From: Glaciecola sp.
Lineage (GTDB): Bacteria; Pseudomonadota; Gammaproteobacteria; Enterobacterales; Alteromonadaceae
DNA length: 64,000 nucleotides
NCBI GenBank assembly: GCA_029251505.1
Contig: JAQXDG010000211.1
Coordinates: 1 to 64,000 of the forward strand
Direction: 5' to 3'
The position numbers were made by a program, and so were the translations under genes. The notes beneath the pieces were generated by a model. That model was not told the DNA's origin, did not search any database, and was given only the letters and a program-made list of their open reading frames with translations. Positions 32,022-49,303 of the stretch are shown piece by piece (position 1 is the stretch's first letter; the number at the start of each line of letters is the position of its first letter).

Positions 32022-32049
32022 AAGCCCAGCATTTTTGTTGGGCTTTTTT
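32022..32049 (+). terminator. Rho-independent terminator after the 31564 ORF
   Basis: AAGCCCAGC / GTTGGGCTT stem followed by TTTTTT. Confidence 0.85.
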
Positions 32050-32182: not shown

Positions 32183-32209
32183 TAAAGTAAAAATGATGAA
32201 TGTCGATAT
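32183..32209 (+). promoter_or_regulatory. Putative sigma-28 (FliA) promoter for mshI-mshG
   Basis: TAAAGTAA (32183-32190) - N11 (32191-32201) - GTCGATAT (32202-32209); E. coli FliA consensus TAAAGTTT-N11-GCCGATAA. Confidence 0.65.
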
Positions 32210-32348
32210 AAATGTCATGGAATGTATATATACCTGCACTTTTACTTTTCGGCAGGAAAATTGCAACAAGATATTATTGTAGCAACATTGATGTTGCTCA
32301 ATAGAGAACGGAATCTAGCACTTACGGTGCAAGAGCAAAGGAATGACA

Positions 32349-33299
32349 ATGCAAATAAGTTGGCGCCAGTACCTGACATTGAAACTTGCCAAGCGCAATG
32401 CGATATTTTCGTTAGGTATTTCTGTTGGAAAACATACTCATTATGTCGTCGGGTTAGTCAAACAAGGCGCTGAAGTCTATTGGGCACATGCCTGTCAGTT
32501 TGATATCACCTCGTTTAAATCTGAATTTAGTCTGTGGATAAAGGCCAATAATTTGGCTGGCACACCGACCTATATATCCTATACCGAATCCTACTATCAA
32601 TTACTTCAAGTCGATCGTCCGGATGTCGAAGAAAACGAAGTTCACACAGCATTACAATGGCCACTTAAAGAATTACTCACCATCAATAAAGAAGTCGCCT
32701 ACGATTATTTTGATTTGCCGGTACAAATCTCCGGACAACACAAGATCAATACCGTGGCGATTGAATATCACCACATCGAATCAATGAGTCAACTGATGCT
32801 TGATTTGCATTTGGATCTCAAGCAAATTGTGGTCGAAGAAATTGCCACTTGTGAATTAGTCCACAGCCATTCCGAAGCAGTGTTAACACTGGTACAAGAG
32901 CTGAGTGGTGAAATCTGTCTGACCATCATCAAGGACAACCGACTTTATATGACGCGTCGCTTACGTGGTTTTGATAATCTTGGGCAGTTTTCACCGGATG
33001 AGTTACGTATGGGGATCATTGAATCCCTGTGTATTCAAATCCAACGCTCACTAGATTATTTCAGTAATCAGTTACGCCAACCGCCAATCAAACATATCTT
33101 TGTACGACTCCCTATTGATCATCAAGATATTATCGCTGAGGATATTGAAAAAGTCATTGATATGCCGGTATCGCTACTGACACCAGCTATTGCTATGAAA
33201 ATTGATATCAATATCAATGATTTTAGTCTCAATGCGCTAGGTGCTGCGATGATTGCTTTACACAAAAGTAACTCTCGTTCGACACATGAGGCGGCTTGA
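32349..33299 (+). CDS. mshI: MSHA biogenesis protein MshI (PilM-like); ORF open from 32343 but the AAAGG at 32337-32341 fits ATG 32349 better
   Basis: Actin-like PilM-type protein at the first position of the msh cluster. Confidence 0.82.
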   Translation: MQISWRQYLTLKLAKRNAIFSLGISVGKHTHYVVGLVKQGAEVYWAHACQFDITSFKSEFSLWIKANNLAGTPTYISYTESYYQLLQVDRPDVEENEVHTALQWPLKELLTINKEVAYDYFDLPVQISGQHKINTVAIEYHHIESMSQLMLDLHLDLKQIVVEEIATCELVHSHSEAVLTLVQELSGEICLTIIKDNRLYMTRRLRGFDNLGQFSPDELRMGIIESLCIQIQRSLDYFSNQLRQPPIKHIFVRLPIDHQDIIAEDIEKVIDMPVSLLTPAIAMKIDININDFSLNALGAAMIALHKSNSRSTHEAA

Positions 33300-33892
33300 T
33301 GAAACATACCATTAATCTGTTACCTAATGCGCTTAAACCACAATTAGAGCTCTTAACGATATATACCGTAATGATTGCTATGATGCTTTCGTTCATGTCG
33401 ATGTTTGGTATGAGTAGTTATATGGATCATGACAAGCGTTTGTTAATCATGGAGCGAGATGCTTTGGGCAGTGAAATTAATCGCAAAATTTCGGTCCTCA
33501 ATGTCATTAATGCTGAACTAGAAAATCGCTTAGAAGATCCCATGCTTATCCAAAGCACGAAAAGCCATGAGTCTCAGCTCAAGCAAAAAAAACGCCTTGT
33601 CGCAGAACTACAATCACGTGATCCACTTCTTGAACATAGCTTTGCCGAATTACTTGAAGCGCTAGCGCTCAACCATAGTGACGAATTATGGTTAACTTCA
33701 ATTACTGTCATCGGTGAAGATATGTTATTTGCGGGTCACGCCGCAGCACCAAGCGCATTGCCAAAATGGATAACGCAATTGAGTAAGACCAAATATTTTG
33801 CAGGTCGAGAATTTGACAGCGCGAAACTGCAATTAAAAGATGAGCAATTGGTGTTTGAACTGCGCACAAGCAAAGGAGAAGATACACGATGA
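33296..33892 (+). CDS. MSHA PilN-like protein (second mshI/mshI2 position)
   Basis: KHTINLLPNALKPQ...single TM then coiled coil; PilN-like, overlaps neighbours by 4 bp. Confidence 0.75.
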   Translation: MMKHTINLLPNALKPQLELLTIYTVMIAMMLSFMSMFGMSSYMDHDKRLLIMERDALGSEINRKISVLNVINAELENRLEDPMLIQSTKSHESQLKQKKRLVAELQSRDPLLEHSFAELLEALALNHSDELWLTSITVIGEDMLFAGHAAAPSALPKWITQLSKTKYFAGREFDSAKLQLKDEQLVFELRTSKGEDTR

Positions 33893-34545
33893 AAAATTTA
33901 TCGTTAATCGCACAATTAAATTTAAAATATGGGACATGTTCACCACGCGAAAAAATCTTGGCGATGATGATAGCCTCCTTTTTATCAGCATATCTTGCTT
34001 ATGAATTATTAGTATTTCCTATTGCTAAAGAAATTAACATCATTGAGGCGTCTATCACCAGCTCCTACGATCGGTTAAACAAGATCGAGACGGAACTCGA
34101 TCAAGTCAATATTCGGATCGCAACGGATCCTAACGAACCCTTAAAAGAACGCATTGAACGCTTATCAGCGCGCATCGCACAGTTAGATAATAACTTTCAA
34201 GATCAAATCAACGAACTGATCCCGGCAGAACAAATGCCCAAGGTATTAGAAACCCTGTTTAGCAAATCGTTCAAACTCGCATTAATTGAAATGCGCTCTA
34301 TCGAACCGTTGGATTTATTTGCCAAAGATGAAGATAAACGGGACGTTAGCTTATATCAACATGGAATGCGCTTGGTGTTTAAAGGTGATTATTTTGATGT
34401 ACAACATTTTTTACAGGAAATAGAAACAATGCCATTTCAGTTGTATTGGCATTCATTAGAGTATCGAGTTGAGGCGTATCCGCTGGCCTTAGTCGAAATT
34501 GAGTTATTTACGTTAAGTTCAAATGAGGCATTCATCGGTGTATAA
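33889..34545 (+). CDS. mshJ: MSHA biogenesis protein MshJ (PilO-like)
   Basis: Single N-terminal TM, coiled coil, PilO-like C-terminus; syntenic position. Confidence 0.8.
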   Translation: MKNLSLIAQLNLKYGTCSPREKILAMMIASFLSAYLAYELLVFPIAKEINIIEASITSSYDRLNKIETELDQVNIRIATDPNEPLKERIERLSARIAQLDNNFQDQINELIPAEQMPKVLETLFSKSFKLALIEMRSIEPLDLFAKDEDKRDVSLYQHGMRLVFKGDYFDVQHFLQEIETMPFQLYWHSLEYRVEAYPLALVEIELFTLSSNEAFIGV

Positions 34546-34906
34546 CATGATTATTCCTATTATAATTTGCACATTATTTGCCAGCTCCAGTGCGCTAGGG
34601 CAAGGTAATGTATTGGTCGAATTGAAAGATCCAACACGTCCTAAAAACTTCACCGTCACTCCCTTAACGAGTAGCAACCAGAAAGCGTTGCCTCCGATTA
34701 AGGTCACTGCAATTTTTGCTTCACCTAAACAACATTATGCCGTTATTGATGGCCAATCATTTGTCCAGGGCGACACCATTCGGGATTATGTCATTGAATC
34801 AATAGGTCGCCAACGCGTTGTGCTTGCACAGATCAAAAACGGCATTACTCAACTTACTACCCTATCTGTATTTGAAGAAGAAGTGAAATCTTATGTTAAA
34901 CAATAA
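34523..34906 (+). CDS. mshK: MSHA biogenesis protein MshK (PilP-like); start may be 34547
   Basis: Signal peptide MIIPIIICTLFASSSALGQG; LKDPTRP...VTAIFASPKQHYAVIDGQSFVQGD. Confidence 0.8.
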   Translation: MRHSSVYNMIIPIIICTLFASSSALGQGNVLVELKDPTRPKNFTVTPLTSSNQKALPPIKVTAIFASPKQHYAVIDGQSFVQGDTIRDYVIESIGRQRVVLAQIKNGITQLTTLSVFEEEVKSYVKQ

Positions 34907-36557
34907 ATATTTATCTATTTTGATTGCCACCACCAGTTTATCCATCGCCGGTTGTGCTAACACTCAACATTCAACCGATGTTGCAGGTGAACTTGCTTTG
35001 AATGTTGCCGAAGCACAGCGCTTTACTGAAGCACAGAGTACGAAGGTAAATGTACCCAGTGATTTGCTTGCAGCCTACAAACCGAATGTACCAACGGCAC
35101 AAGAGTTGGTCATGGATAGCGCCAAATACGATATCAACGCACAAAATATTGATGCAGCGAGTTTTTTTGCTAATTTAGTCAAAGATACGCCATATAGTGT
35201 CGCTGTTCATCCAGAGGTAATAGGGTCGATTTCATTGGACCTAAAACAAGTACCATTAGAACAAGTATTTAGCTTAGTTTCCGACCTGTACGGTTTTCAG
35301 ATTGAACGTAAACAAAGTATTTTTCGCATTTTTCCATCCGGTATGCGGACCGAAACATTTAACGTCAACTATCTATTAATGCAACGAGATGGCACAACCC
35401 AAACCAGCATTATTTCGGGCGGCGTATCGCAAAATAGTCAAAACAATAATCAAAACCAAGGTAACAACTCCGGGTCCCAAATGGGCGGCCAAGGTAATCA
35501 AGGCGGATTTGGTGGCGGCCAAAACAACCAGCAAAATACGAATGGCACTATGATTTCAACCCGTACCGAAACCAATTTTTGGAAAGATTTAGAAGTGAGT
35601 CTAAAAACCATGATCGGTACGGACAAAGGTAGAGCGGTGTTTGTCACTCCACAAGCCGGTTTGGTCACGGTACGTGCCCTGCCTGAAGAAATTCGTAGCA
35701 TTCGTGATTTTCTGGATATTTCCGAAACCAATTTACAACGCCAAGTGGTGTTAGAAGCGCGGATATTAGAAGTTGAACTCAAAGATGAATACCAACAAGG
35801 AATCAATTGGGGCACCATTGCCAAAACGATTGGTACCACTGCGTTTGGCTTTAGTACCACAGCAGGTAATTTTGGCAATCAAATCACCCCATCATTAGGC
35901 GGTGTAACGAGCTTGTCGTTTGTTAATCAAGATTTTTCTGGGGTGCTATCGTTACTAGAAACTCAAGGCGATGTCCAGGTTCTCTCTAGTCCACGAGTCA
36001 CCGCAACCAACAATCAAAAAGCCGTTATCAAAGTTGGAAATGATGAATACTTCGTGACTGACGTATCGAGTCAAAATACGATTACCTCGACCACTACGTC
36101 AGTGGTACCGGATATCGAATTGACACCATTTTTCTCCGGGATTGCGCTGGATGTAACTCCGCAAATTGATGAAAACCACTCAATTTTATTACATGTCCAC
36201 CCATCAGTTATCGAAACCCAGGAACAAGAAAAAATCGTCACCCTCAATGAAGAAAATATCGTTTTGCCGTTAGCGCAAAGCACCATCCGTGAATCCGATA
36301 CGATCATCAAAGCCATGTCAGGTGAGATTGTCGTCATTGGTGGTTTAATGCAATCCATCACTGACGACTTGTATTCACAGACGCCTATATTGGGCGATCT
36401 CCCTTTTATCGGTAACTTGTTTAGAAACAAGAAGCAGCGCGAAGTGAAAAAAGAACTCATTATTTTAATTAAACCGACCATTGTTGAATCGGGTACTTGG
36501 CATCAGCAGATGAAGCGCAGCCAACACCAGATGGATGAATGGTTATCGGTTAAATAA
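34893..36557 (+). CDS. mshL: MSHA secretin MshL (PilQ-like)
   Basis: Lipobox SIAGC; secretin core VLEARILEVELKDEYQQGINWG, SSPRVTATNNQKAVIKVG, GGLMQS...LGDLPFIGNLFR. Confidence 0.93.
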   Translation: MLNNKYLSILIATTSLSIAGCANTQHSTDVAGELALNVAEAQRFTEAQSTKVNVPSDLLAAYKPNVPTAQELVMDSAKYDINAQNIDAASFFANLVKDTPYSVAVHPEVIGSISLDLKQVPLEQVFSLVSDLYGFQIERKQSIFRIFPSGMRTETFNVNYLLMQRDGTTQTSIISGGVSQNSQNNNQNQGNNSGSQMGGQGNQGGFGGGQNNQQNTNGTMISTRTETNFWKDLEVSLKTMIGTDKGRAVFVTPQAGLVTVRALPEEIRSIRDFLDISETNLQRQVVLEARILEVELKDEYQQGINWGTIAKTIGTTAFGFSTTAGNFGNQITPSLGGVTSLSFVNQDFSGVLSLLETQGDVQVLSSPRVTATNNQKAVIKVGNDEYFVTDVSSQNTITSTTTSVVPDIELTPFFSGIALDVTPQIDENHSILLHVHPSVIETQEQEKIVTLNEENIVLPLAQSTIRESDTIIKAMSGEIVVIGGLMQSITDDLYSQTPILGDLPFIGNLFRNKKQREVKKELIILIKPTIVESGTWHQQMKRSQHQMDEWLSVK

Positions 36558-36591
36558 CCGAACAATGCACGCTTAAAAGGATTAACCACGC

Positions 36592-37506
36592 ATGTATTTA
36601 TCGTATTTTAATTGTCAATATTGGCCATTTTCATTAACCCCAAACACCAATCAATATTTTGGGGCGACATGTCATAATGAAGCGATCATCACGCTCAACC
36701 ATGCATTATTAAGTGGTGAAGGCTTCATTAAAGTAGTTGGTGAAGTGGGTACGGGCAAAACATTATTGTGCCGTAAATTACTCAATGAATTACCCGCCAG
36801 CGTCCACACCGCCTATATTCCTAATCCGCATTTAGCCCCCAACGAATTACGCCATGCGGTGGCCAATGAATTGGGCGTTAATTTGGCGCTCAACTCCGAT
36901 CAACAGGAGTTTACCCAAGCGATCCAAACGCGCTTAGTCGCGTTGCATCAAGCGTTTGATCATGTCGTCCTGGTCATAGATGAAGCTCAGGCATTGCCTG
37001 TTGAAAGCATGGAAGCTTTGCGACTGATCACCAATTTTGAAACCGAAACACATAAGTTGTTACAAGTTGTGCTGTTAGGCCAACCAGAGTTAGATGAAAA
37101 AATCGCGCTGCCCGAACTGCGACAATTAAAACAACGGATCACCTTTTCATGTCAGCTTAGTGAGCTTGATGCTGAACAAATTTACTACTATGTCCGTCAT
37201 CGAATGGTCAAAGCTGGGTATCAAGGCCCTGAGATTTTTAGTCGTGATGTGTGCCGCATGATCAAACAAGCGACACGAGGTACGCCACGCATTATCAATG
37301 TTCTGAGCCATAAAATCTTAATGTTGATGTATGGCAAAGGGTTAAAAATGGCTACGCCTGAACTCGTGAAATTAGCGGCTCAAGACACCGAAGCATGTCA
37401 CAAAGTCAGCTTACCATGGCGCTTAAACGCCAAGGCGCAATGGCGGGCTGCATGTCTCGTCACCGTTGGTTTATGCGGAGCGCTGTTGTTATTTCCACTG
37501 GCGTAA
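36592..37506 (+). CDS. mshM: MSHA biogenesis AAA ATPase MshM (ExeA-like)
   Basis: VVGEVGTGKTLLCRKLL Walker A, VVLVIDEAQAL Walker B, GTPRIINVLSHK. Confidence 0.9.
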   Translation: MYLSYFNCQYWPFSLTPNTNQYFGATCHNEAIITLNHALLSGEGFIKVVGEVGTGKTLLCRKLLNELPASVHTAYIPNPHLAPNELRHAVANELGVNLALNSDQQEFTQAIQTRLVALHQAFDHVVLVIDEAQALPVESMEALRLITNFETETHKLLQVVLLGQPELDEKIALPELRQLKQRITFSCQLSELDAEQIYYYVRHRMVKAGYQGPEIFSRDVCRMIKQATRGTPRIINVLSHKILMLMYGKGLKMATPELVKLAAQDTEACHKVSLPWRLNAKAQWRAACLVTVGLCGALLLFPLA

Positions 37507-37560
37507 GGTAAAGACACCTGCCTACGCCCGAATAATTAAGTTCTTTATCCATAAGGAAAT

Positions 37561-38475
37561 GTGATGAGTACTGTCAATCAAATGTTACATGATCTCAACG
37601 CGCGCACAGGCGATTTAGCGATGAACGGTGCCGAAACATATGCGCCTATTGAACCCGTTCGCATCAATAAGACAACAAAATACATCGTTGGAACAGCCTG
37701 CTTTGCTGTACTTGCTATCATACTTATGACGCAAAACGTGAGCACCTATAACCGCACGATACCCGTGGATGACATCGGACAGGTCAATACACAGAGTCAG
37801 CAACCGAGCGCGCAGTCAACAGCCACCATACTCGCGTCGGATGCCATGCCTGCAACTGCCGCCCCAACGTCGCAAACAGCAGATATCGTCGCATCAGCAA
37901 CACAAATGAAAATCATCCCAAGCGTAGATGATGTAACTAATACGCGCATCGATGTGGCTCCATTCGACGGCTATATGCAAGTTAATACCAGTAATGGCGA
38001 AGGGCGCTTTATTGCAGGTTTGCAAGATAAAGCCCGACTTGCGATACAAAGTAATAATACCCAAAGTGCCATTCAAGCCCTACAAGCGTTACTTACGGCT
38101 AAACCTTATGATCATGCTTCACGACTGTTATTAAGCCGCTTATATTTTCAATCCAATCAATCTGATAAAGCGTTAAATTTACTGCAAGCAGCGCCATCTG
38201 AAGATGATTTATCAATCGAATTTTTAGGTTTTCGTGCAAGTCTTTATACCGAAGCAGGAGAGCACCTCAATGCAATTAGCGATTATCAGGTGCTGACACG
38301 ACTAGAGCCGACTAATGTGCGTTGGCAGTTGGGTATTGCCATTGCTTATGATCAAATTGACGCTTATCAAGATGCTAAATTTGCCTATGAACAAGTCAAA
38401 TTAATTGGTGATTTACCCACTAATATTTTTACGTTTATCGATGAACGAATCACCATATTAAAGGATTTAATATGA
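37561..38475 (+). CDS. mshN: MSHA biogenesis protein MshN (TPR)
   Basis: STVNQMLHDLNAR N-terminus, TM, TPR C-terminus; syntenic. Confidence 0.87.
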   Translation: MMSTVNQMLHDLNARTGDLAMNGAETYAPIEPVRINKTTKYIVGTACFAVLAIILMTQNVSTYNRTIPVDDIGQVNTQSQQPSAQSTATILASDAMPATAAPTSQTADIVASATQMKIIPSVDDVTNTRIDVAPFDGYMQVNTSNGEGRFIAGLQDKARLAIQSNNTQSAIQALQALLTAKPYDHASRLLLSRLYFQSNQSDKALNLLQAAPSEDDLSIEFLGFRASLYTEAGEHLNAISDYQVLTRLEPTNVRWQLGIAIAYDQIDAYQDAKFAYEQVKLIGDLPTNIFTFIDERITILKDLI

Positions 38476-40223
38476 AAAATAATTTACGGATGCGCTTAGG
38501 TGACCTGCTCATCCAACACAACTTGATCACCCCTGAACAACTTGATATTGCGCTCGATGAACAAGGGCGTACCGGCCGCAAATTAGGTGCGGTATTAATT
38601 GATTTAGGCTATGTGGCTGAGTCGCAGATGTTGAGTCAATTAGCTGATCATTTGCATATCCCGCTGATCGATATTGATAAAATACCAATCAATCCTGATA
38701 GCGTAAAAAAACTACCCGAAATTCAAGCTCGTCGCTATCGAGCATTGATTATCAAAGAACAAGCACATTCATTTTTATTAGGCATGGCTGATCCAACCGA
38801 TCTTAACGCTGTAGATGCTATCGGGGGGCTGCTACCCAAAACATTAGAATTGGCAGTTGTGAGTGAATCACAGCTCTCCAACGCGTTTGATAATTACTAT
38901 CGCAAAACTGAAGAAATTGCGTCGTTTGCCGAAGAATTGGCACTGGAGTATTTGGATCAAAATGAATTTTCTATTTCGACGGAGCTAAGTGAAGACCAAG
39001 ATACCGCGGTATCTCGATTGCTCCAATCCATCTTTGAAGACGCGGTCATGTCTAAAGCGTCAGATATTCATATTGAACCGAATAATGATATGTTACGGAT
39101 CCGACATCGAGTTGACGGCATGCTGCAAGAAAACATCATCAATCAAAAAAATATCGCCAATGCGTTGGTCTTACGTTTAAAACTCATGGCGGGACTTGAT
39201 ATTTCAGAACGACGCTTACCCCAAGATGGTCGCGCGCAAATCCATATTAAAAATAAAAGAATAGATGTTCGTTTATCCACCATGCCCACCCATGATGGAG
39301 AGGCGGTGGTGATGCGCTTATTGGATCAGTCCGCAGGGATCTTAAGTTTAGCGCGGTCGGGCATGCCACCGTTGATCTTTCATCGATACAAAAACATGCT
39401 CAGTCGTCCTAACGGACTGATTTTGGTGACCGGCCCCACCGGCTCAGGTAAAACAACCACCTTGTATGGTTCGTTGAGTGAATTGAACACCCCTGAGAGA
39501 AAAATCATTACGGTAGAAGATCCGGTCGAATATAGCTTGCCGCGTATCAATCAAGTCCAGGTCAATAACAAGATTAACTTGGATTTTGCACGCGTACTGC
39601 GAACTGCGTTAAGACAAGATCCCGACATTATCATGGTTGGGGAAATGCGAGATCAAGAAACGGCCGAAATCGGCATGCGCGGTGCCTTAACTGGACACTT
39701 GGTATTATCCACACTCCACACTAATGATTCGATTTCATCGGCAATCCGTTTAATCGATATGGGGACACCTGGTTATCTGGTCGCCAGTGCGTTACGCGGC
39801 GTTATTGCGCAGCGCTTAGTCCGTAAAATTTGTGAAAATTGCAAAGTCGATACACTGCCAAGTGATGAGCATTTGACATGGTTACAGCATTTGGACCCCA
39901 ACGCTCATCATATTAACTTTAAAAAAGGCGACGGCTGTCAAAAATGTAACCACACCGGTTATGCCGGACGGGTCGGCGTATTCGAATTATTGCAGATGAC
40001 AGAAGCAATGATGGATATGCTCAAAATCGATGATACTGCGGGGTTTGCGCTTGCAGCCAAACAATCACCTGGCTACAAACCCTTAGCCAATGGCGCATTG
40101 GACTTTGCAAAACAGGGCATTACCACAATTGAAGAGGTACTTAAATTAGTTGAAAACATCTCGGAAATGGATTATTTGCCCACCGCTGAGTCAGTCCTGG
40201 AGTTAGACGATGCCACAGTATAG
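38472..40223 (+). CDS. mshE: MSHA extension ATPase MshE (GspE/PilB family with N-terminal MshEN domain)
   Basis: GPTGSGKTTTLYGSL, EDPVEY, GALTGHLVLSTLHTND, CxxC pairs; N-terminal RLGDLLIQHNLITPEQLDIALDEQ...LGAVLIDLGYV. Confidence 0.95.
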   Translation: MKNNLRMRLGDLLIQHNLITPEQLDIALDEQGRTGRKLGAVLIDLGYVAESQMLSQLADHLHIPLIDIDKIPINPDSVKKLPEIQARRYRALIIKEQAHSFLLGMADPTDLNAVDAIGGLLPKTLELAVVSESQLSNAFDNYYRKTEEIASFAEELALEYLDQNEFSISTELSEDQDTAVSRLLQSIFEDAVMSKASDIHIEPNNDMLRIRHRVDGMLQENIINQKNIANALVLRLKLMAGLDISERRLPQDGRAQIHIKNKRIDVRLSTMPTHDGEAVVMRLLDQSAGILSLARSGMPPLIFHRYKNMLSRPNGLILVTGPTGSGKTTTLYGSLSELNTPERKIITVEDPVEYSLPRINQVQVNNKINLDFARVLRTALRQDPDIIMVGEMRDQETAEIGMRGALTGHLVLSTLHTNDSISSAIRLIDMGTPGYLVASALRGVIAQRLVRKICENCKVDTLPSDEHLTWLQHLDPNAHHINFKKGDGCQKCNHTGYAGRVGVFELLQMTEAMMDMLKIDDTAGFALAAKQSPGYKPLANGALDFAKQGITTIEEVLKLVENISEMDYLPTAESVLELDDATV

Positions 40224-41433
40224 TTATGAGGGACGTAAGGCTGGAGGGCAAATCACGCGTGGTACGTTAGATGCTTCAGATCCTAATGCAGCAGCAAAGA
40301 GTCTTATGGCCAAAAACATTATTCCATTGAATATTGTTGCTGGAGGAGATGTCAGAGCCTTGGAGCAACCGGATCAGATCTCAATATTTACTCCTAAGGT
40401 GTCACTGGCCGATCTCGTGATGTTTTGCCGCCAAATGTACTCATTAGCCAATGCCGGTGTCCCGATCATGCGTTCTGTCAGAGGGTTGGCGAATACCATT
40501 ACATGTAAACGTTTAAAAAGTGCCTTAATGAATATACAAGAAAGCCTTGAACGTGGCCGCACTTTATCCTCGGCGATGAATGAACACCCCACAATCTTTA
40601 ATCAACTCTTCATCTCACTGATCCACGTGGGCGAAAACACCGGTCAGATCGATGCCTCATTTGCGCAGCTTGCCCGATATTTAGAGCGGGAACAAGAAAC
40701 ACGCAAACAAATTAAAGCCGCTACCCGTTATCCGACGTTTGTCCTGATTGCCATCACCGCAGCCATGGTCATTATGAATGTTATGGTGATCCCTATTTTT
40801 GCCGATATGTTCAAAAAATTTGGCTCGGAACTACCGTTAATGACCCGAATATTATTGAGCTCATCTGATTTCTTTATCTATCAGTGGCCCTATTTAGTTG
40901 CTGGATCATTGTTGCTGATTGGCGGTATTTACCAATACCTGAATACCGATAGTGGAGCGTATCGCTGGGATAAACTTAAATTAAATTTACCCATTTTGGG
41001 CAGTATTTTTCAACGCTCACTCATGAGTCGTTTTGCGGCGAGTTTTGCTATGATGCTTAGTGCGGGGGTCCCCTTAAATTCAGCGCTATCCTTGGTCGCT
41101 GATGCAGTCAATAACCGTTATATGTCCCAGAAAATTTTAGAAATGCGCACCAATATCGAACGCGGTGAAAATCTTTCTAGGGTATCTGCATCCAGTGGCT
41201 TGTTTCCGCCCTTGGTTATGCAAATGATCACTGTCGGTGAAGAAACGGGGCGCATTGATGAGCTACTCATCGAAGTCGGCAATTATTATGAGCGCGAAGT
41301 TGAATACGACTTACAAAAATTAACTGCTCGCATCGAGCCGATTTTAATTTCCGTCGTCGCAGGCATGGTACTGGTGTTAGCGTTAGGAATATTTACCCCT
41401 ATGTGGGATATGATGGGGGCAATTAAAGGCTAA
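40210..41433 (+). CDS. mshG: MSHA inner-membrane platform protein MshG (PilC/GspF)
   Basis: MPQYSYEGRKAGGQ, RQMYSLANAGVPI, VGEETGRIDELL. Confidence 0.94.
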   Translation: MPQYSYEGRKAGGQITRGTLDASDPNAAAKSLMAKNIIPLNIVAGGDVRALEQPDQISIFTPKVSLADLVMFCRQMYSLANAGVPIMRSVRGLANTITCKRLKSALMNIQESLERGRTLSSAMNEHPTIFNQLFISLIHVGENTGQIDASFAQLARYLEREQETRKQIKAATRYPTFVLIAITAAMVIMNVMVIPIFADMFKKFGSELPLMTRILLSSSDFFIYQWPYLVAGSLLLIGGIYQYLNTDSGAYRWDKLKLNLPILGSIFQRSLMSRFAASFAMMLSAGVPLNSALSLVADAVNNRYMSQKILEMRTNIERGENLSRVSASSGLFPPLVMQMITVGEETGRIDELLIEVGNYYEREVEYDLQKLTARIEPILISVVAGMVLVLALGIFTPMWDMMGAIKG

Positions 41434-41461
41434 TTATTTTAGTTTTTTATCAAATAATTAC

Positions 41462-41488
41462 TAAACAAAATACGCCTTCTACCGATAA
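41462..41488 (+). promoter_or_regulatory. Putative sigma-28 (FliA) promoter for mshA
   Basis: TAAACAAA (41462-41469) - N11 - ACCGATAA (41481-41488). Confidence 0.6.
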
Positions 41489-41550
41489 AAACATTAGAGA
41501 TATTATTGCTTAATTCTCTATTAAATTAATTCACTTTTAAAGGAATAAAT

Positions 41551-42045
41551 ATGAAACAACGTGGTTTTACACTAATCGAACTGATCATCGTGATCGTCAT
41601 CCTTGGTATTCTTGCTGTTACTACCGCTCCTCGTTTTATGGATATGCAAGGCGATGCCAAAGCCTCAACACTAGCCGGAGTTAAAGCCTCTTTAGAAAGT
41701 GGCGCGACGCTCGTATATGCCAAAGCAGCACTAGCTGGTGAACAAAAGAAAGCACCGGGTTTAGTTAATGTCAGTCAATCTGGCACAGCTGTTAACCTAG
41801 CTACTCAATATGGCTATCCAAAATCTAGCGAAATGACGACGATTGCTAAATTGAACAGTTGGATTGATATTGATCCGGCTGATTTTAAAGTTGAAGCAGC
41901 TGGGACGGGTAAATTTGCAATCAGCTTATTTGGTCAAACTGCTTATGCAACAACTGATGGGGCCGAGAATTGTCACGCAGTGTACACTGATGCGACTGAT
42001 GTTGATTCATCTCCGGTTGTTGTCCTTGAAAAAACGGGTTGCTAA
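41551..42045 (+). CDS. mshA: MSHA major pilin
   Basis: Type IV prepilin leader MKQRG/FTLIELIIVIVILGILAVTTAPRF; C-terminal Cys pair; followed by a strong terminator. Confidence 0.93.
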   Translation: MKQRGFTLIELIIVIVILGILAVTTAPRFMDMQGDAKASTLAGVKASLESGATLVYAKAALAGEQKKAPGLVNVSQSGTAVNLATQYGYPKSSEMTTIAKLNSWIDIDPADFKVEAAGTGKFAISLFGQTAYATTDGAENCHAVYTDATDVDSSPVVVLEKTGC

Positions 42046-42094
42046 TTAGGTTGTGATCTAATCACACTGTTTATAACACGATTCACAGACGATG

Positions 42095-42123
42095 AAAGCC
42101 CTAATTTATTAGGGCTTTTTTTT
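42095..42123 (+). terminator. Rho-independent terminator of mshA
   Basis: AAAGCCCTAA-TTTA-TTAGGGCTTT followed by an uninterrupted T run to 42123. Confidence 0.92.
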
Positions 42124-42186
42124 GCTTGATGTTTGTTGAGTAACGTTACTATGAGGGGGTATTAGGCATTCATCGAATAAAATAAT

Positions 42187-42213
42187 TAAAGCGCACGATG
42201 TGGGTGTCGATAT
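42187..42213 (+). promoter_or_regulatory. Putative sigma-28 (FliA) promoter for mshC-mshQ
   Basis: TAAAGCGC (42187-42194) - N11 (42195-42205) - GTCGATAT (42206-42213), the same -10 octamer as upstream of mshI. Confidence 0.65.
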
Positions 42214-42248: not shown

Positions 42249-42797
42249 ATGGATATGGCGCAACGTGGATTTTCACTCATCGAACTCATTACTGTGATGA
42301 TGATTGTTAGTATTATTGGGTTAACCGCATTTGCGCGCTTAAATGATACTCAAGGGTTTGCCTATGCTGCGCAACAAGAGCGTTTGATCAGTACCCTTCG
42401 TCTTATCCAAAACAAAGCGATGCAAGATACCCGCCCCGCGATCTGTTACCAAATTAATTTTCGTTTGCCCGATGTCAGTGGCAGTGTTTTGCCTGCGTAT
42501 GGTTTTGCTACCCGCAATTATGCTCTAAGTAATGCCGCACAGACCTGTGATGAAAACGCGATTGATTTTACGGTTTACCCGGAGCTCATTACCCAACCCA
42601 ATGAACTGGACAGCGCGGATATGACGTTGATCACTGCTGATGGCGCAGCATTGGGATATCGTTCCTTAGGCTTCGATAGTTTGGGGCGTCCGCAAAATAC
42701 CGCGAATAATTGCACTAACACGTGCAAAATCAGCTTCGATATCGCCTCCGTATATGGTGTGTGCATCAATCGTGAAGGCATGATTTATGCTTGTTAA
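42249..42797 (+). CDS. mshC: MSHA minor pilin MshC (start may be 42255)
   Basis: Prepilin leader AQRG/FSLIELITVMMIVSIIG; syntenic. Confidence 0.87.
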   Translation: MDMAQRGFSLIELITVMMIVSIIGLTAFARLNDTQGFAYAAQQERLISTLRLIQNKAMQDTRPAICYQINFRLPDVSGSVLPAYGFATRNYALSNAAQTCDENAIDFTVYPELITQPNELDSADMTLITADGAALGYRSLGFDSLGRPQNTANNCTNTCKISFDIASVYGVCINREGMIYAC

Positions 42798-43404
42798 TTT
42801 TCCCCGTAAAAAATCTAATAACCACCATGAACAAGGCTTTACCTTAATTGAAATGATCGCAGGCATTGTGGTGTTTGGGGTCGTTATAGGCATCATCGGT
42901 ACCATTATTATTCCACAAACTACACAAAGCTTTGACCCGCTTTGGCAAGTTCGTGCCACCGAACTAAGCCAATCACTGTATAACGAAATCAACGCCAAAG
43001 GATTTGATGAGAAATCTGATTTTGTAGGTGGGATGACTCGATGCAACGAACCGACCGCTCCTACCTGCACCCCAAGCGGTCAGTTTGGTCCAGATACTGG
43101 CGAATCACGTGCCACCTATGATGACATCGATGATTATCATGGTTTGAACTTGAGCAATGCCGCCATATCGGACGCACAAGGGTTTACTCCGTTGATTAAT
43201 GGCACCGCCATGTACCAAGGATTTACCGCTAGCGTATCTGTCATGTATGACGACAACCTCAATGGCGTCAATGATGATGATCTTAATGGCAATGGTGTGC
43301 TCGATTCAGGCACATTAGTGGGTAACACGAAAGTCATTACTATCACCATCACGACACCAAATGATGATCCGATCAGATCCAGTTTTATTAGAAGGAATTT
43401 TTGA
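42787..43404 (+). CDS. mshD: MSHA minor pilin MshD
   Basis: Prepilin leader EQG/FTLIEMIAGIVVFGV; E.RATYDDIDDYHGL motif. Confidence 0.88.
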   Translation: MLVNFPRKKSNNHHEQGFTLIEMIAGIVVFGVVIGIIGTIIIPQTTQSFDPLWQVRATELSQSLYNEINAKGFDEKSDFVGGMTRCNEPTAPTCTPSGQFGPDTGESRATYDDIDDYHGLNLSNAAISDAQGFTPLINGTAMYQGFTASVSVMYDDNLNGVNDDDLNGNGVLDSGTLVGNTKVITITITTPNDDPIRSSFIRRNF

Positions 43405-44264
43405 TGAAACACCCCGCTCAACAGCATGGATTTACATTAATTGAACTGGTCTTTGTCTTAATCATTGTCGCGATTGTTGGCGTCGGGATCAGCGGTTTTA
43501 TGCGTGCTACCGTATTGCAGTATTCAGAGTTTATGAGTCGATCAAAATTAATCAATGACAGTAGTTTTATTGTCGAGCGAATGGCCCGCGAAATCAAACA
43601 TGCGATCCCCAATTCAATCCGCGTCAGCGGTAACAGCAACAGTCATTGTTTAGAGTTTGTCCCAAGCAAATGGGCTACCACATACACCGCTTTACCAATG
43701 CAACCAAGCAATGAAACTGAAGTCAATGTGATCCGTATGGCGGATATCAACAATGCCACGTTCTTGCCCACTACAGCAAACGATTATGCGTTTGTGTACC
43801 CAATGGAAAGTGCGGATATTTATGATGGAACACGCAACAAGCGGCAAATGATTACTGCTTGCAGTGACGATGGTGATGGCGATTGTGCTACGGACGACGA
43901 CAGCGATAATATTATTCAATTATCTGTCGCTAACGCATTTGCCCAAAGTTCACCTGCATCTCGTTTGTATATTGGCTCTACGGCAGTGAGTTATTGTGTT
44001 CGCAACCAGCAAGTCTATCGTCATACTGGTGCACTCGATGCAACACAAACCATCTTCACATCCGGTGGCGTATTGATGGCGCAAAATATTGCCAATACCT
44101 TATCGTCCAATCCTGCAGCTCAAACCGGTGCCAGTGATGACCCGTTTCGATGGTACGAAATGAGCTTGCGTCGTAATGCCTATTCTCGGATTTTGTTGTC
44201 ATTTTCTGACAACGGTCAAACTATTTCCTTTATGCATGAGGTTCACATTCCCAATGTACCGTAA
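43401..44264 (+). CDS. mshO: MSHA minor pilin MshO
   Basis: Prepilin leader QHG/FTLIELVFVLIIVAIVG; syntenic; overlaps mshD by 4 bp. Confidence 0.88.
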   Translation: MMKHPAQQHGFTLIELVFVLIIVAIVGVGISGFMRATVLQYSEFMSRSKLINDSSFIVERMAREIKHAIPNSIRVSGNSNSHCLEFVPSKWATTYTALPMQPSNETEVNVIRMADINNATFLPTTANDYAFVYPMESADIYDGTRNKRQMITACSDDGDGDCATDDDSDNIIQLSVANAFAQSSPASRLYIGSTAVSYCVRNQQVYRHTGALDATQTIFTSGGVLMAQNIANTLSSNPAAQTGASDDPFRWYEMSLRRNAYSRILLSFSDNGQTISFMHEVHIPNVP

Positions 44265-44685
44265 TTCACTGACCCACCAACAAGGTAGCATGTTAGTTAT
44301 TGCACTATTTGTGATCATTGTATTGGCCATGCTCGGTGCCACAATGAGTAAAATGGTGATTGCCTCTAATGTGACTTTTGTAACTGATTTAACAGGACTG
44401 CGAGCCAAGCACGCAGCACAAACTGGGCTAGAGGTATTAGGTAGCCAATCTTTTCCTTTAGATAATTCGATTCAGACGTGTAACACCACCGTAAATTCAA
44501 ATGCCGCATTTACAGGGATCACAGGATTTAGTCATTGTGCATATACAGCAGCGTGTAACACGATTTCAATCACCAAAAATGGCACTGAACACTATTTTTA
44601 CCGCTTCACTAGCGTAGGCACATGTCAAGTTGGCGATAATATCGTTAGCCGCACCCTATCAGTTGATGCAATGCAAGCTCGCTAA
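44254..44685 (+). CDS. mshP: MSHA biogenesis protein MshP (ORF open from 44176; ATG 44254 fits the domain)
   Basis: QQGSMLVIALFVIIVLAMLGATMSKM (PilX-like N-terminus); syntenic. Confidence 0.82.
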   Translation: MYRNSLTHQQGSMLVIALFVIIVLAMLGATMSKMVIASNVTFVTDLTGLRAKHAAQTGLEVLGSQSFPLDNSIQTCNTTVNSNAAFTGITGFSHCAYTAACNTISITKNGTEHYFYRFTSVGTCQVGDNIVSRTLSVDAMQAR

Positions 44686-44739
44686 GACAACACTACAATA
44701 AAAAACATAGCTAACCAGCTGATTGTTATAGAGGTTTTT

Positions 44740-47700
44740 ATGAACTTAATACGGATATTTGTACTCTTTGCGGCCTTTACTTCGTTTTTGGTAGGGGCAA
44801 ATACTGATTTACGCCCGGTATTTCCGGACCCCGTGTCATCATCATTTGGTGCTGATCTATATTTGCGTGGGGACATTGAGTTTAGTGGCGGTGATAACCA
44901 ACTTAATTTTGACAGTATTGATGATAGCTACACTGTATGGTGGTGGAATGTAGTCACCGAAGCTTGCAACAATCAACGCTGTTATGCCAACGGTGAGCGC
45001 TCACAAACACTCGATGTCCCTGATTTTCGCTATACCAGTGGCAATGATCAACTCACGGTTGACGATGAAGATGACACCCTAATCACGAGTGATGATTACC
45101 ACAATATCACCGTTATGGACAAAGGTGAATTGCTCTTGGGCCCAAGTGGTAGCAACAAAACGGTTGTTATTAAGCATTTGATGCTTAGGGATAAAGCCAC
45201 ATTAATATTACAGGACGGTATCTATTTCATCGAAAACTTGACTGCTGAAAACAGTGAAATTGAATTAGAAAATGAGTCAACCACAGTAACATTATTAATT
45301 AAAAATTTAGTTGTTGAAGATACGGACATCAATACGCAGAAAAAGAGTAGCGCAGGCAATCTAGGCATGGTGCTATATAATAGCGCTAGAATAGAGGGTA
45401 AAACAAAAATAGATGGGTTTATTTATGCCCTTGATACTATTGATATCCTTGATGACTTTACATTAAATGGCGCCATCAATGCGGCTAATTTTAAACTCCA
45501 AGAGGACATCAAAATTGAATACAACGAAGATGACATCGTCAATAGTAAATTATTTGACTTTAATATAGAGCCTCCTAAATTAATCGGACATTGGCCTCTG
45601 GATATTTGCCCAACACAGATGACCGATAGCATTCCTGATATTGTGGGCGAACATCACGCTATCGCCAAAGTCGGTTTAGCTACTGAAAACGCGGGTAAAT
45701 ATTGTCAATCCGGCAGGCTACAAGGAACCGGGGCCCATATTTATATTCCTGATAACGCCAAATTACGTGGCGAAAAAGGCACTATCTCGTTTTGGTTTAA
45801 CATCGATGATCTTGATTACAGCAACACCAAAGAAGACGGGGGGCAATATTTATTTTCCAGAGATTCATACCATAGAGATATGGGAGGTCATATTTCCTCA
45901 TGGGTTGATGATAAGGGCCGGGTAAGATTACGTTATCAAACTAACTCAAAAGATTATGAACTGAAAAGCGACAAAGATGAGATACAAGCCGATCAATGGT
46001 ATTTTTATGCTGTTACTTGGGATAATGACACAACCCGACTCTATATCAATGGCAATGAGGTAGACGAGGACGATAAGGCATCGGGCAGCCAAAAAAATAA
46101 TTCTGAACCCATGATCTTTGGAGGAAATGCTTCACGTAGCTCTAATAGTGAAACAACCCCAAGTGAATTAAGTGATTTTTTGCAAGGCAATATTGATGAT
46201 ATCCGTTGGTATGATGATGCATTAGACAACAGTGAACTGAATGAATTAATGGCACAAGCCGACTACGAGTGTACGGCATGTGACAATGTGTCCTCCAAAG
46301 GGTTGGTCGCAGAGTATCGCTTCTCTGATACCCGTTGGGGTAATCCTGGTGATATCCAAGATTCTTCAGGTAATGCTATGCACGCGACGTTATCGGGTGA
46401 AACACGCCTGCTAACACCGGTCAATAATATGTCCTGTGGCACGTTAGACATTCCGCCAAATACCGATCAAAACACACCTGATTTTTTAGATACTCCCATT
46501 GATTTAGAAAACGATGTCGGTCCTGAAGGGACGATTTCTTTTTGGTTTAAATCTAATTCAGGGTGGCAAGATAAACGCGACCGCACCTTATTTGATGCGG
46601 TGCAAATATCACAAGCTACCACGAAACACGTGTTGAACAAGTATTTTTATTTAATGCTCAAAGAAAATGGCAGTCTGCAATTTGGCTTTGAATCTTCAAA
46701 CGACGCAGATATTCGCTATAACTCCAATTCGTTTTCTTACCCTGAGTCAACTTGGGTGCATATTGCACTGAGTTATAGTTATGTGACCAAAGATGTGCAA
46801 TTGTTTTTAAATGGGATCCAGCAAGTCTTTACTACGACCGAAGGCGCTAATTGGAACTACATCATGCCCGACTATGGTAATTTAGCGTTTGCCGATAACC
46901 GCACCGATTATATTACCGCAACCTCATCGGCCAATGGCCGGTATGATGATGTGAGGGTATATAGTCATTTACAAAATGCCGCTGATATACAAGCTGATAT
47001 GCAAAAAGCAGAACCCTGCGCGGTCTTATACGGCTATAAAATCGAGCACCCTGATCAAGCCTTAACCTGTGATGCCGCCCCCGTCACGGTCAAAGCCTGT
47101 AAAAATCAAGATTGCAGTGAATTGTATGAACACCCCGTGCAAGTGAGTTTAGCACCGTCACCTAATGGTGATCCCGCAGGACAAGTATATGAATTTCAAG
47201 AGCAGTTTACGTTTGATTTAGTCTCACGCACCCCTGGTAATACGCCTTTAGTATTTACGCCAATGTATCATGCAAAGCCTGACGGTTTGGTCAATACATG
47301 CACCAACGGATGTAATATCAATTTTGTGAATGCAGGGCTACAAATTTATGCTGACCAAGCAACGGATTATGGCTCTGATGCGACACTGACCCAGCAAATC
47401 ACGGCACAAGGCATGGTCGCTGGTGCATCTATGAGTCATATTAACATGCGTGCAGTGCGTGATAATAACGGCGTGTGTGAAGCACTTGTCAGCGGAACCA
47501 AAGAAGTTAACCTGACATATGCATGCTATCAATATGATCAATCCGGCAATCCGGTTCAAGGTTGTGCGGTACCGTTTGGTGCTCTCCCGCTCAATACGCA
47601 AGCCAGCTCTATAACGCGCGCAACCAATATGCTATTTAATAACGCGGCGCAAACTGATTTTGGAAACTTTAGCTTACCTGACGCGACCCACTTCACCCTC

Positions 47701-49128
47701 AAAGCGCACATGAATGTTGATGGGGCGATATTACAATCGAATCAGCTAAACGTCGAATTTACGCCACAAAAAATCACATTAAGTCATAACATCACCAACA
47801 ACCACATCGCCGGACTACCGTTTAATTTTAAGATTGTCGGTTATGGGGCCAACGATATCTTGTTGCCAAGTTACAACCCGCAGCAATTAACGGTCTATGC
47901 GAGCCGTATCGCGCCAGAAACAGGCACAGAATTTGGCACGTTGTCTTTTGCAGAAGAGTATCAAATCAGCACCAATCCTGAACTTAATTTGGTGATCCCT
48001 AGTACGCCTTTATTCGGTTCTCAGCTGCGCTTCACGCAAGGGCAATATCTATATGAAAATGCCTATTTTTCTGATGCGGGTACTATTGAACTCTATATGG
48101 TCGACCAACATGCGTATCGCACAGTGCAATCAAATACCCTGCGTATTGGTCCTTTTGTTCCGGCTTATTTTGATGTACAAGCGGTCTATCCACCTGAATT
48201 TGAGGATGCAACGTCCGATGCCTTTACGTATGTAGGGCAACCATTTTTCTTTGATATTAGTGCCTTACCAAACATCGAAGTAACCGCCTATAACGCGCTC
48301 AATCAAGTTGCACATAATTATACTGGTGAGTTGTGGAAGCTGTTTCCAAGTGCGGCGCAAACTCAGGCACAAATCAGTTACACCGACGTATCAGGTGCCG
48401 GCCTGACAGTGAGCCAAGCGACGACTCCGACTACGCCGACAGTGAGTGATTATGATAACAATGATGGCAGCGGCCAAATATTGCTCAATAACATCGCATT
48501 ACAATACGCTAAACCAACACTGCCCGTCTCCACCTTTGCAACAGGGGTTGATATGGTGCTGGATGAAGCATTTTTAACGGACGTTAACGGCACCTGTTAT
48601 CAAGTTGCTTATCCCGCTGGGTGCAGTGCATTTACATTTAGCCATATCACAGGTACTCAACAACGTTACGGTCGATTAAATATGATCAATGCATTTGGCC
48701 CAGAAGATCAAACATTGTACATCGTACTGCAAGCGCAGTATTACGCAGATGGCAATTGGTTGGTGAACACCGATGATAATGCAACCAACATCTCCCTAGC
48801 ACAAAACTTAGGGCAGGTTAGTTTAACGCCTTTACCTGACAGCGAAAATAATATTGCGAGTCTGTATAGCAATATTCAAAGCACCGGATTTTTAGCCGCA
48901 GGCATATCGGATACCAGTGATTTGAGTTTTACCCCTGCTAATCTTCGCGGTGGGTTACAAGTCACAATATCCTCTTTAGTCGGCTCACCAGCGTGGGCTA
49001 AGTATCTAAATTATGATTGGAATGGCGATGGGATGATTAATGGCTTAGATGCCCCATCAGCTACGATTAATTTTGGTATTTATAGAGGTAATGATCGCAA
49101 GATAAATTACCGTGAAGTCTTAGAGTAA
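44740..49128 (+). CDS. mshQ: MSHA biogenesis protein MshQ, with two LamG/concanavalin-like domains
   Basis: Signal peptide; repeat-rich beta-helix-like N-terminus; two LamG-like modules (GTISFWF...LYINGNEV...; GTISFWF...LFLNGIQQ...); C-terminal DWNGDG...ATINFGIYRGNDRKINYREVLE. Confidence 0.88.
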   Translation: MNLIRIFVLFAAFTSFLVGANTDLRPVFPDPVSSSFGADLYLRGDIEFSGGDNQLNFDSIDDSYTVWWWNVVTEACNNQRCYANGERSQTLDVPDFRYTSGNDQLTVDDEDDTLITSDDYHNITVMDKGELLLGPSGSNKTVVIKHLMLRDKATLILQDGIYFIENLTAENSEIELENESTTVTLLIKNLVVEDTDINTQKKSSAGNLGMVLYNSARIEGKTKIDGFIYALDTIDILDDFTLNGAINAANFKLQEDIKIEYNEDDIVNSKLFDFNIEPPKLIGHWPLDICPTQMTDSIPDIVGEHHAIAKVGLATENAGKYCQSGRLQGTGAHIYIPDNAKLRGEKGTISFWFNIDDLDYSNTKEDGGQYLFSRDSYHRDMGGHISSWVDDKGRVRLRYQTNSKDYELKSDKDEIQADQWYFYAVTWDNDTTRLYINGNEVDEDDKASGSQKNNSEPMIFGGNASRSSNSETTPSELSDFLQGNIDDIRWYDDALDNSELNELMAQADYECTACDNVSSKGLVAEYRFSDTRWGNPGDIQDSSGNAMHATLSGETRLLTPVNNMSCGTLDIPPNTDQNTPDFLDTPIDLENDVGPEGTISFWFKSNSGWQDKRDRTLFDAVQISQATTKHVLNKYFYLMLKENGSLQFGFESSNDADIRYNSNSFSYPESTWVHIALSYSYVTKDVQLFLNGIQQVFTTTEGANWNYIMPDYGNLAFADNRTDYITATSSANGRYDDVRVYSHLQNAADIQADMQKAEPCAVLYGYKIEHPDQALTCDAAPVTVKACKNQDCSELYEHPVQVSLAPSPNGDPAGQVYEFQEQFTFDLVSRTPGNTPLVFTPMYHAKPDGLVNTCTNGCNINFVNAGLQIYADQATDYGSDATLTQQITAQGMVAGASMSHINMRAVRDNNGVCEALVSGTKEVNLTYACYQYDQSGNPVQGCAVPFGALPLNTQASSITRATNMLFNNAAQTDFGNFSLPDATHFTLKAHMNVDGAILQSNQLNVEFTPQKITLSHNITNNHIAGLPFNFKIVGYGANDILLPSYNPQQLTVYASRIAPETGTEFGTLSFAEEYQISTNPELNLVIPSTPLFGSQLRFTQGQYLYENAYFSDAGTIELYMVDQHAYRTVQSNTLRIGPFVPAYFDVQAVYPPEFEDATSDAFTYVGQPFFFDISALPNIEVTAYNALNQVAHNYTGELWKLFPSAAQTQAQISYTDVSGAGLTVSQATTPTTPTVSDYDNNDGSGQILLNNIALQYAKPTLPVSTFATGVDMVLDEAFLTDVNGTCYQVAYPAGCSAFTFSHITGTQQRYGRLNMINAFGPEDQTLYIVLQAQYYADGNWLVNTDDNATNISLAQNLGQVSLTPLPDSENNIASLYSNIQSTGFLAAGISDTSDLSFTPANLRGGLQVTISSLVGSPAWAKYLNYDWNGDGMINGLDAPSATINFGIYRGNDRKINYREVLE

Positions 49129-49169
49129 TCGCGATTTTAGCCACTGTTAGGCGATATTTAGCAAAATCA

Positions 49170-49211
49170 AAAGTCAGATTTATGGTATGTTTAACCAAAT
49201 CTGGCTTTTTT
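49170..49211 (+). terminator. Rho-independent terminator of the mshC-mshQ unit
   Basis: AAAGTCAGATTT (49170-49181) / AAATCTGGCTTT (49197-49208) with one G-U, then T run. Confidence 0.82.
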
Positions 49212-49303
49212 GTGTCTGTTTTATGAAAATAAAGTATGCAATATATTGAAACTTCCCATAAAATACCTGTCATAAAGAAAGACTCCTAATAACTACAAAA
49301 TAA

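Follow-up and report, generated by a model that had tools for sequence, protein, structure and literature searches.

Candidate FliA-type promoters before the MSHA pilus genes of a Glaciecola genome that has lost its flagellum

The MSHA pilus locus of a flagellum-less Glaciecola carries three candidate FliA-type promoters, one ahead of each of its transcription units, and the same genome encodes the flagellar sigma factor FliA. The explanation we favor is that the three sites are FliA promoters, and that FliA, accompanied by FlgM in sister genomes, outlived the flagellum and now drives the MSHA genes. We regard this explanation as probable, if only modestly so. A fuller version, in which FliA, with FlgM in the sisters, regulates all three MSHA units and FlgM is relieved without flagellar export, is put forward tentatively, as a possibility about which we are more doubtful. 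Transcription of the three msh units by FliA, and the mode of its control, are what we infer from sequence. Throughout, the window is the entire 64 kb stretch of DNA that was analyzed; its genome is called G000, and the other genomes of the genus are G001 to G009.

The first site, at 32183..32209 (+), precedes the mshI-mshG unit and reads TAAAGTAA-N11-GTCGATAT. The second, at 41462..41488 (+), precedes mshA and reads TAAACAAA-N11-ACCGATAA, and the third, at 42187..42213 (+), precedes the mshC unit and reads TAAAGCGC-N11-GTCGATAT. A sequence-only reading of the window had placed sites with an 11-nt spacer at these coordinates and had reported a 12-mer, TGTCGATATAAA, common to the mshI and mshC leaders. 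The DNA matches the sites letter for letter, and the 12-mer is there as described. That reading also likened the sites to the Escherichia coli FliA consensus, a likeness that holds for core and spacing: all three msh sites combine TAAA at −35 with the core CGATA at −10, with 11 nt between the 8-mers. It does not extend to every consensus base. Specifically, a scan with the full 8+8 E. coli consensus, allowing at most three mismatches, misses all three msh sites and yields a single chance match. Thus, the match is to the core and its spacing, not to each base of the consensus.

The exact core, TAAA-N17-CGATA, occurs five times in the window: three times in the msh leaders and twice inside genes. 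In dinucleotide shuffles of each leader, the core arises with P = 0.0037 (mshI), 0.0039 (mshA), and 0.0021 (mshC), and the product of these values gives a joint chance of ~3e-8 for its presence in all three. We also scored sites with a weight matrix, built by hand from what is generally known of FliA promoters and from the flagellin sites of relatives; genome-wide scans used exact-core patterns. Over both strands of the whole window, the matrix ranks the mshI site first, the mshC site second, and the mshA site third. Its best site lies just upstream of flgM in 10 of the 10 genomes tested (12-23 bits), and the msh scores fall within the range that it gives to the flgM and flagellin promoters of relatives. 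Genome-wide, exact-core matches in G000 number 69, most of them intragenic, versus 50 for a reversed control pattern, and so slight an excess counts against the explanation we favor. Seven matches are extragenic and have an ORF of 100 aa or more beginning no further than 300 bp downstream; three of the seven are the msh sites. Among all 69, coding matches included, the weight matrix places mshI third and mshC 14th. Elsewhere in G000, a strong FliA-like site, TAAAGCGG-N11-GTCGATAA (L194; G000:C191:33605-33631, −), lies 135 bp before a 177-aa ORF of unknown function; it is not among the strict matches in G001.

The first msh unit (32343..41433, +) consists of closely spaced ORFs, namely mshI, a second mshI-like ORF, and mshJ, K, L, M, N, E, and G, and has orthologues in 60 relatives. 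The major pilin gene mshA, an ORF with the prepilin motif GFTLIEL, forms a unit of its own (41551..42045, +) with a terminator behind it. The third unit (42249..49128, +) contains mshC, mshD, and three further ORFs that are tentatively named mshO-, mshP-, and mshQ-like from their position and homology. The three terminators claimed for this arrangement are all credible, two of them in a terminator scan and all three by folding. They lie before the mshI unit (32022..32049, +; 32022-32045 in the scan; −16.8 kcal/mol, z = −5.0), behind mshA (42094..42123, +; 42094-42119 in the scan; −14.1 kcal/mol, z = −4.3), and behind the mshC-mshQ unit (49169..49213, +; −15.8 kcal/mol, z = −4.6), where a T run follows. 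The third (~49169-49209) has a long loop, which is why the scan missed it.

The cognate sigma factor is present: G000 encodes a full-length FliA (TIGR02479, 256 bits, above the cut-off). Searches of the same genome found neither FlhA nor flagellin. Of the nine further genomes in the genus, seven show the same combination of FliA without FlhA or flagellin, and one of these seven consists of a single contig; the remaining two, G002 and G004, are flagellated. Among 199 genomes surveyed across the family, 19 are without FlhA, including six Glaciecola. FliA is kept in all six of these Glaciecola and lost in all 13 others. MSHA, by comparison, occurs in only four genomes of the genus (G000, G001, G002, and G004). 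Flagellum-less Glaciecola without MSHA (G003 and G005-G009; n = 6) also keep FliA, so MSHA is not the sole reason for its persistence. Neither FlgM nor MSHA was detected in the flagellum-less G003, G006, G007, G008, and G009, and no shared FliA targets emerged from core sites common to the MSHA-less G003 and G009. These two genomes share a few near-identical 26-mers that contain the core; the one that was placed lies inside rplS. The FliA tree is compatible with a single loss of the flagellum or with several.

fliA sits in a deletion scar. Specifically, in G000, G001, and G005, the start of flrA is fused to the end of flhG, and fliA and cheW follow. The fused ORF overlaps the start of fliA and carries a FleQ/FlrA N-terminus (Pfam) and an FlhG C-terminus, the latter 66% identical in G000 to residues 145-288 of G004 FlhG. 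Thus, the genes between flrA and flhG have been removed. The fusion (L062:10346-11179, L063:1496-2173, and L067:4274-5020) is decaying, its internal length differing in the three genomes; the G001 remnant still has a sigma-54 activator fragment. The che genes that lie behind fliA in G004 are missing downstream of fliA in the scar genomes, where cheW is left. Retention of cheW downstream of fliA, with the neighboring che genes gone, is seen at L062:8836-9327 and also at L063, L067, L068, and L070. Gene order is smr-fliA-cheW-metA in G006 and G008, with flgM missing, and rplS-fliA-metA in G003 and G007. We interpret fliA as the last survivor of a stepwise erosion of the flagellar cluster.

The gene for the anti-sigma partner, flgM, is kept in the flagellum-less G001 and G005, where it is divergent, upstream of fliA, and adjoins smr. 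A FliA-type site lies 61-63 bp upstream of flgM in these genomes, reading TAAAGTAA-N11-ACCGATTA in G001 and TTAAGTAA-N11-GTCGATTA in G005. A search for FlgM in G000 was negative; the contig that carries fliA there (C103) ends before the place where flgM is expected. Of the flagellum-less FliA-FlgM type, G000 shows the loss of flagellar genes and an intact fliA; flgM with its FliA-type site was found in the sisters.

Selection still acts on FliA, weakly in the window's clade, to judge by substitution patterns: within G000, G001, and G005, fliA has an omega of 0.29-0.39 and neither a stop nor an indel. Values for comparison are 0.03 for mshE, 0 for metA, and 0.05-0.08 for cheW (versus G005), and, at the other end, 0.42 for flgM and 0.42-0.65 for the FlrA-FlhG remnant, the length of which varies. 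In G003, G007, and G009, fliA omega is 0.07-0.19; more broadly, the fliA genes of L065, L069, and L071 (G003, G007, and G009) and of L068 and L070 (G006 and G008) are intact and constrained, with omega of 0.06-0.19 within clades. Three-taxon estimates from pairwise counts put fliA omega at roughly 0.3-0.45 on all three branches. Neutral drift of the G000 gene was considered and rejected: the tally of 13 private amino-acid changes versus 4 private synonymous codons is a biased count because the outgroup, G004, is synonymously saturated. G000 FliA is changed at positions conserved in the alignment, from FETFA to FETFV, from LREIG to LREIA, and from DWTPRS to DWAPRS, and these changes are, in our judgment, the strongest argument that the system is fading.

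These changes bear on the possibility that the sites are left over from a flagellated ancestor, that FliA is fading in G000, and that sigma-70 or other promoters now account for most msh transcription. Consistent with such a history are the raised omegas of fliA and flgM, the altered −35 element of the mshA site in G001, the decay of the FlrA-FlhG remnant, and the failure to find FlgM in G000. However, fliA has acquired no stop or indel in three lineages and its omega is well below 1, G000 and G001 both retain intact sites before mshI and mshC, and the FliA sites are not overlapped by any good sigma-70 site, the sigma-70 matches in the msh leaders being no more than chance. We consider this account unlikely, while taking it seriously.

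Comparison among relatives shows how far each site reaches. For mshA, the two elements are identical at 16 of 16 positions between G000 and the flagellated G004, versus 4 of 11 in the spacer; in G001 and G002, the −35 reads TCAA and the −10 is good. The mshI site is identical in G000 and G001 and weaker in G002 (TAAAGTAA-N11-GCAGATAA), and the G004 contig does not include the mshI part of the locus. The mshC site is confined to G000 and G001: it is absent in G004, and G002 has the −10 only. FliA sites are not a general feature of MSHA loci, as equivalent conserved sites are lacking at ~55 other Alteromonadaceae loci. The idea that FliA sites serve msh genes across the family was rejected, the scans having returned isolated high-scoring matches only, in genomes with or without FliA. 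A search with the MshE of the window returned only one close relative, a Glaciecola metagenome-assembled contig (L051, 99% match). Since the mshA site is shared with the flagellated G004, the link between FliA and mshA appears to predate loss of the flagellum; we read it as a clade-specific trait that is older than that loss. An insertion of ~10 kb interrupts mshG, and with it the msh locus, in G004 (L080, L211; G004:C26, about 83.6-94.0 kb); it carries integrase-like and recombinase-like genes, as judged by eye. With mshG interrupted in this way, the MSHA pilus of the flagellated G004 may be broken.

The same comparisons, together with the scans, address whether the three sites could be products of chance or serve some other factor, such as a sigma-70 variant or a DNA-binding regulator, with FliA unrelated to msh. 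The core occurs ~50 times by chance genome-wide, the mshC site is kept no further than G001, and the sites are missing from the wider family, all of which such a proposal would accommodate. The small joint chance calculated above for the three leaders, the preservation in G004 of both elements and their spacing though the spacer sequence has diverged, and the presence of the cognate sigma factor make it, in our estimation, quite improbable.

The hook-basal-body checkpoint does not survive in this organism. The earlier reading had proposed that, through FliA-type promoters, the pilus would be made only once the hook-basal body is complete; its sites do look like FliA promoters and the genome encodes FliA, but the checkpoint was not supported. 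That MSHA belongs to the late flagellar class, switched on at hook-basal-body completion with FlgM export, agrees with the existence of the sites and of FliA and may hold in the flagellated G004, which has the mshA site, but with no FlhA, no flagellin, and fliA lying where the cluster was deleted, it is refuted here unless the cluster is missing from all assemblies, and we give it almost no credence. Specifically, FlgM cannot exit through a flagellar export gate in such a cell, and the checkpoint cannot operate; it may have been possible only in the flagellated ancestor or in G004.

The notion that FliA outlived the flagellum and drives the MSHA genes suggests the following course of events. 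FliA control of mshA would have arisen in the Glaciecola clade while the flagellum was still present, and comparable FliA-type sites would have come to lie ahead of mshI and mshC. Deletion would then have removed the flagellar cluster, with survival of fliA and, in the sister genomes, of flgM. FliA would be made from whichever promoter precedes the overlapping flrA'-flhG' remnant, and FlgM, itself behind a FliA-type site, would restrain it. Because there is no flagellar export gate, release of FliA could come about through FlgM turnover or dilution, or through an altered FliA/FlgM ratio. In this manner, FliA would drive the MSHA genes with no checkpoint on flagellar assembly in place.

Partial precedents exist. 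Non-motile genomes often encode a FliA homologue (41%; PMC12199754). FliA and FlgM persist in Legionella oakridgensis, which has no flagellum, and in other Legionella of clade III; relief of FlgM by turnover or dilution is proposed for L. oakridgensis, where FlgM seems to be degraded (Tlapak et al. 2017, as described in PMC5655016). The resemblance is that the flagellar regulon is lost, fliA is kept, flgM is sigma-28-dependent (here, in the sisters, it lies behind a FliA-type site), and there is no export gate. The differences are that no pilus target is reported for Legionella, whereas the candidate targets here are the three MSHA units, and that some Glaciecola have lost flgM while fliA stays. 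Synechocystis PCC 6803 uses SigF to control pilA (PMC2758279). Like FliA here, SigF is a group 3 alternative sigma factor acting in a flagellum-less host at a type IV pilin promoter, which in Glaciecola is a predicted one. SigF differs in that it falls outside the group of E. coli RpoF/FliA, and its promoter sequences are TAGGC and GGTAA. Finally, Vibrio cholerae shares homologous MSHA machinery with MshE and shows cross-talk between flagellum and MSHA; the link suggested there is post-translational, via c-di-GMP and MshE (PMC7098655), whereas the candidate link here is transcriptional, by FliA-type sites. A search of the open literature, with subscription papers outside its scope, found no report of FliA-driven transcription of msh genes or of a FliA-driven MSHA locus.

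If FliA does drive the MSHA genes, Glaciecola would offer a naturally occurring example of a rewired regulatory circuit: a regulator of swimming would have persisted after swimming was lost by taking charge of an attachment organelle. The role of FliA in a cell without a flagellum, and the relief of FlgM without export, become directly testable because a single genus contains the successive stages: a flagellated genome with a FliA-type site before mshA (G004), flagellum-less genomes that have both FliA and MSHA (G000 and G001), and flagellum-less genomes that have FliA without MSHA (G003 and G005-G009).

Two observations concern mshA itself. Here, the gene starts 117 bp after mshG (window 41433-41551); most other Alteromonadaceae have ~1.2 kb with another prepilin gene between mshG and mshA. 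Between G000 and G001 (window 41551-42045 versus L079), mshA shows 77% identity and an omega of 0.60, and most of its msh neighbors are 92-99% identical. Such strong divergence amid near-identical neighbors suggests diversifying selection on the pilin.
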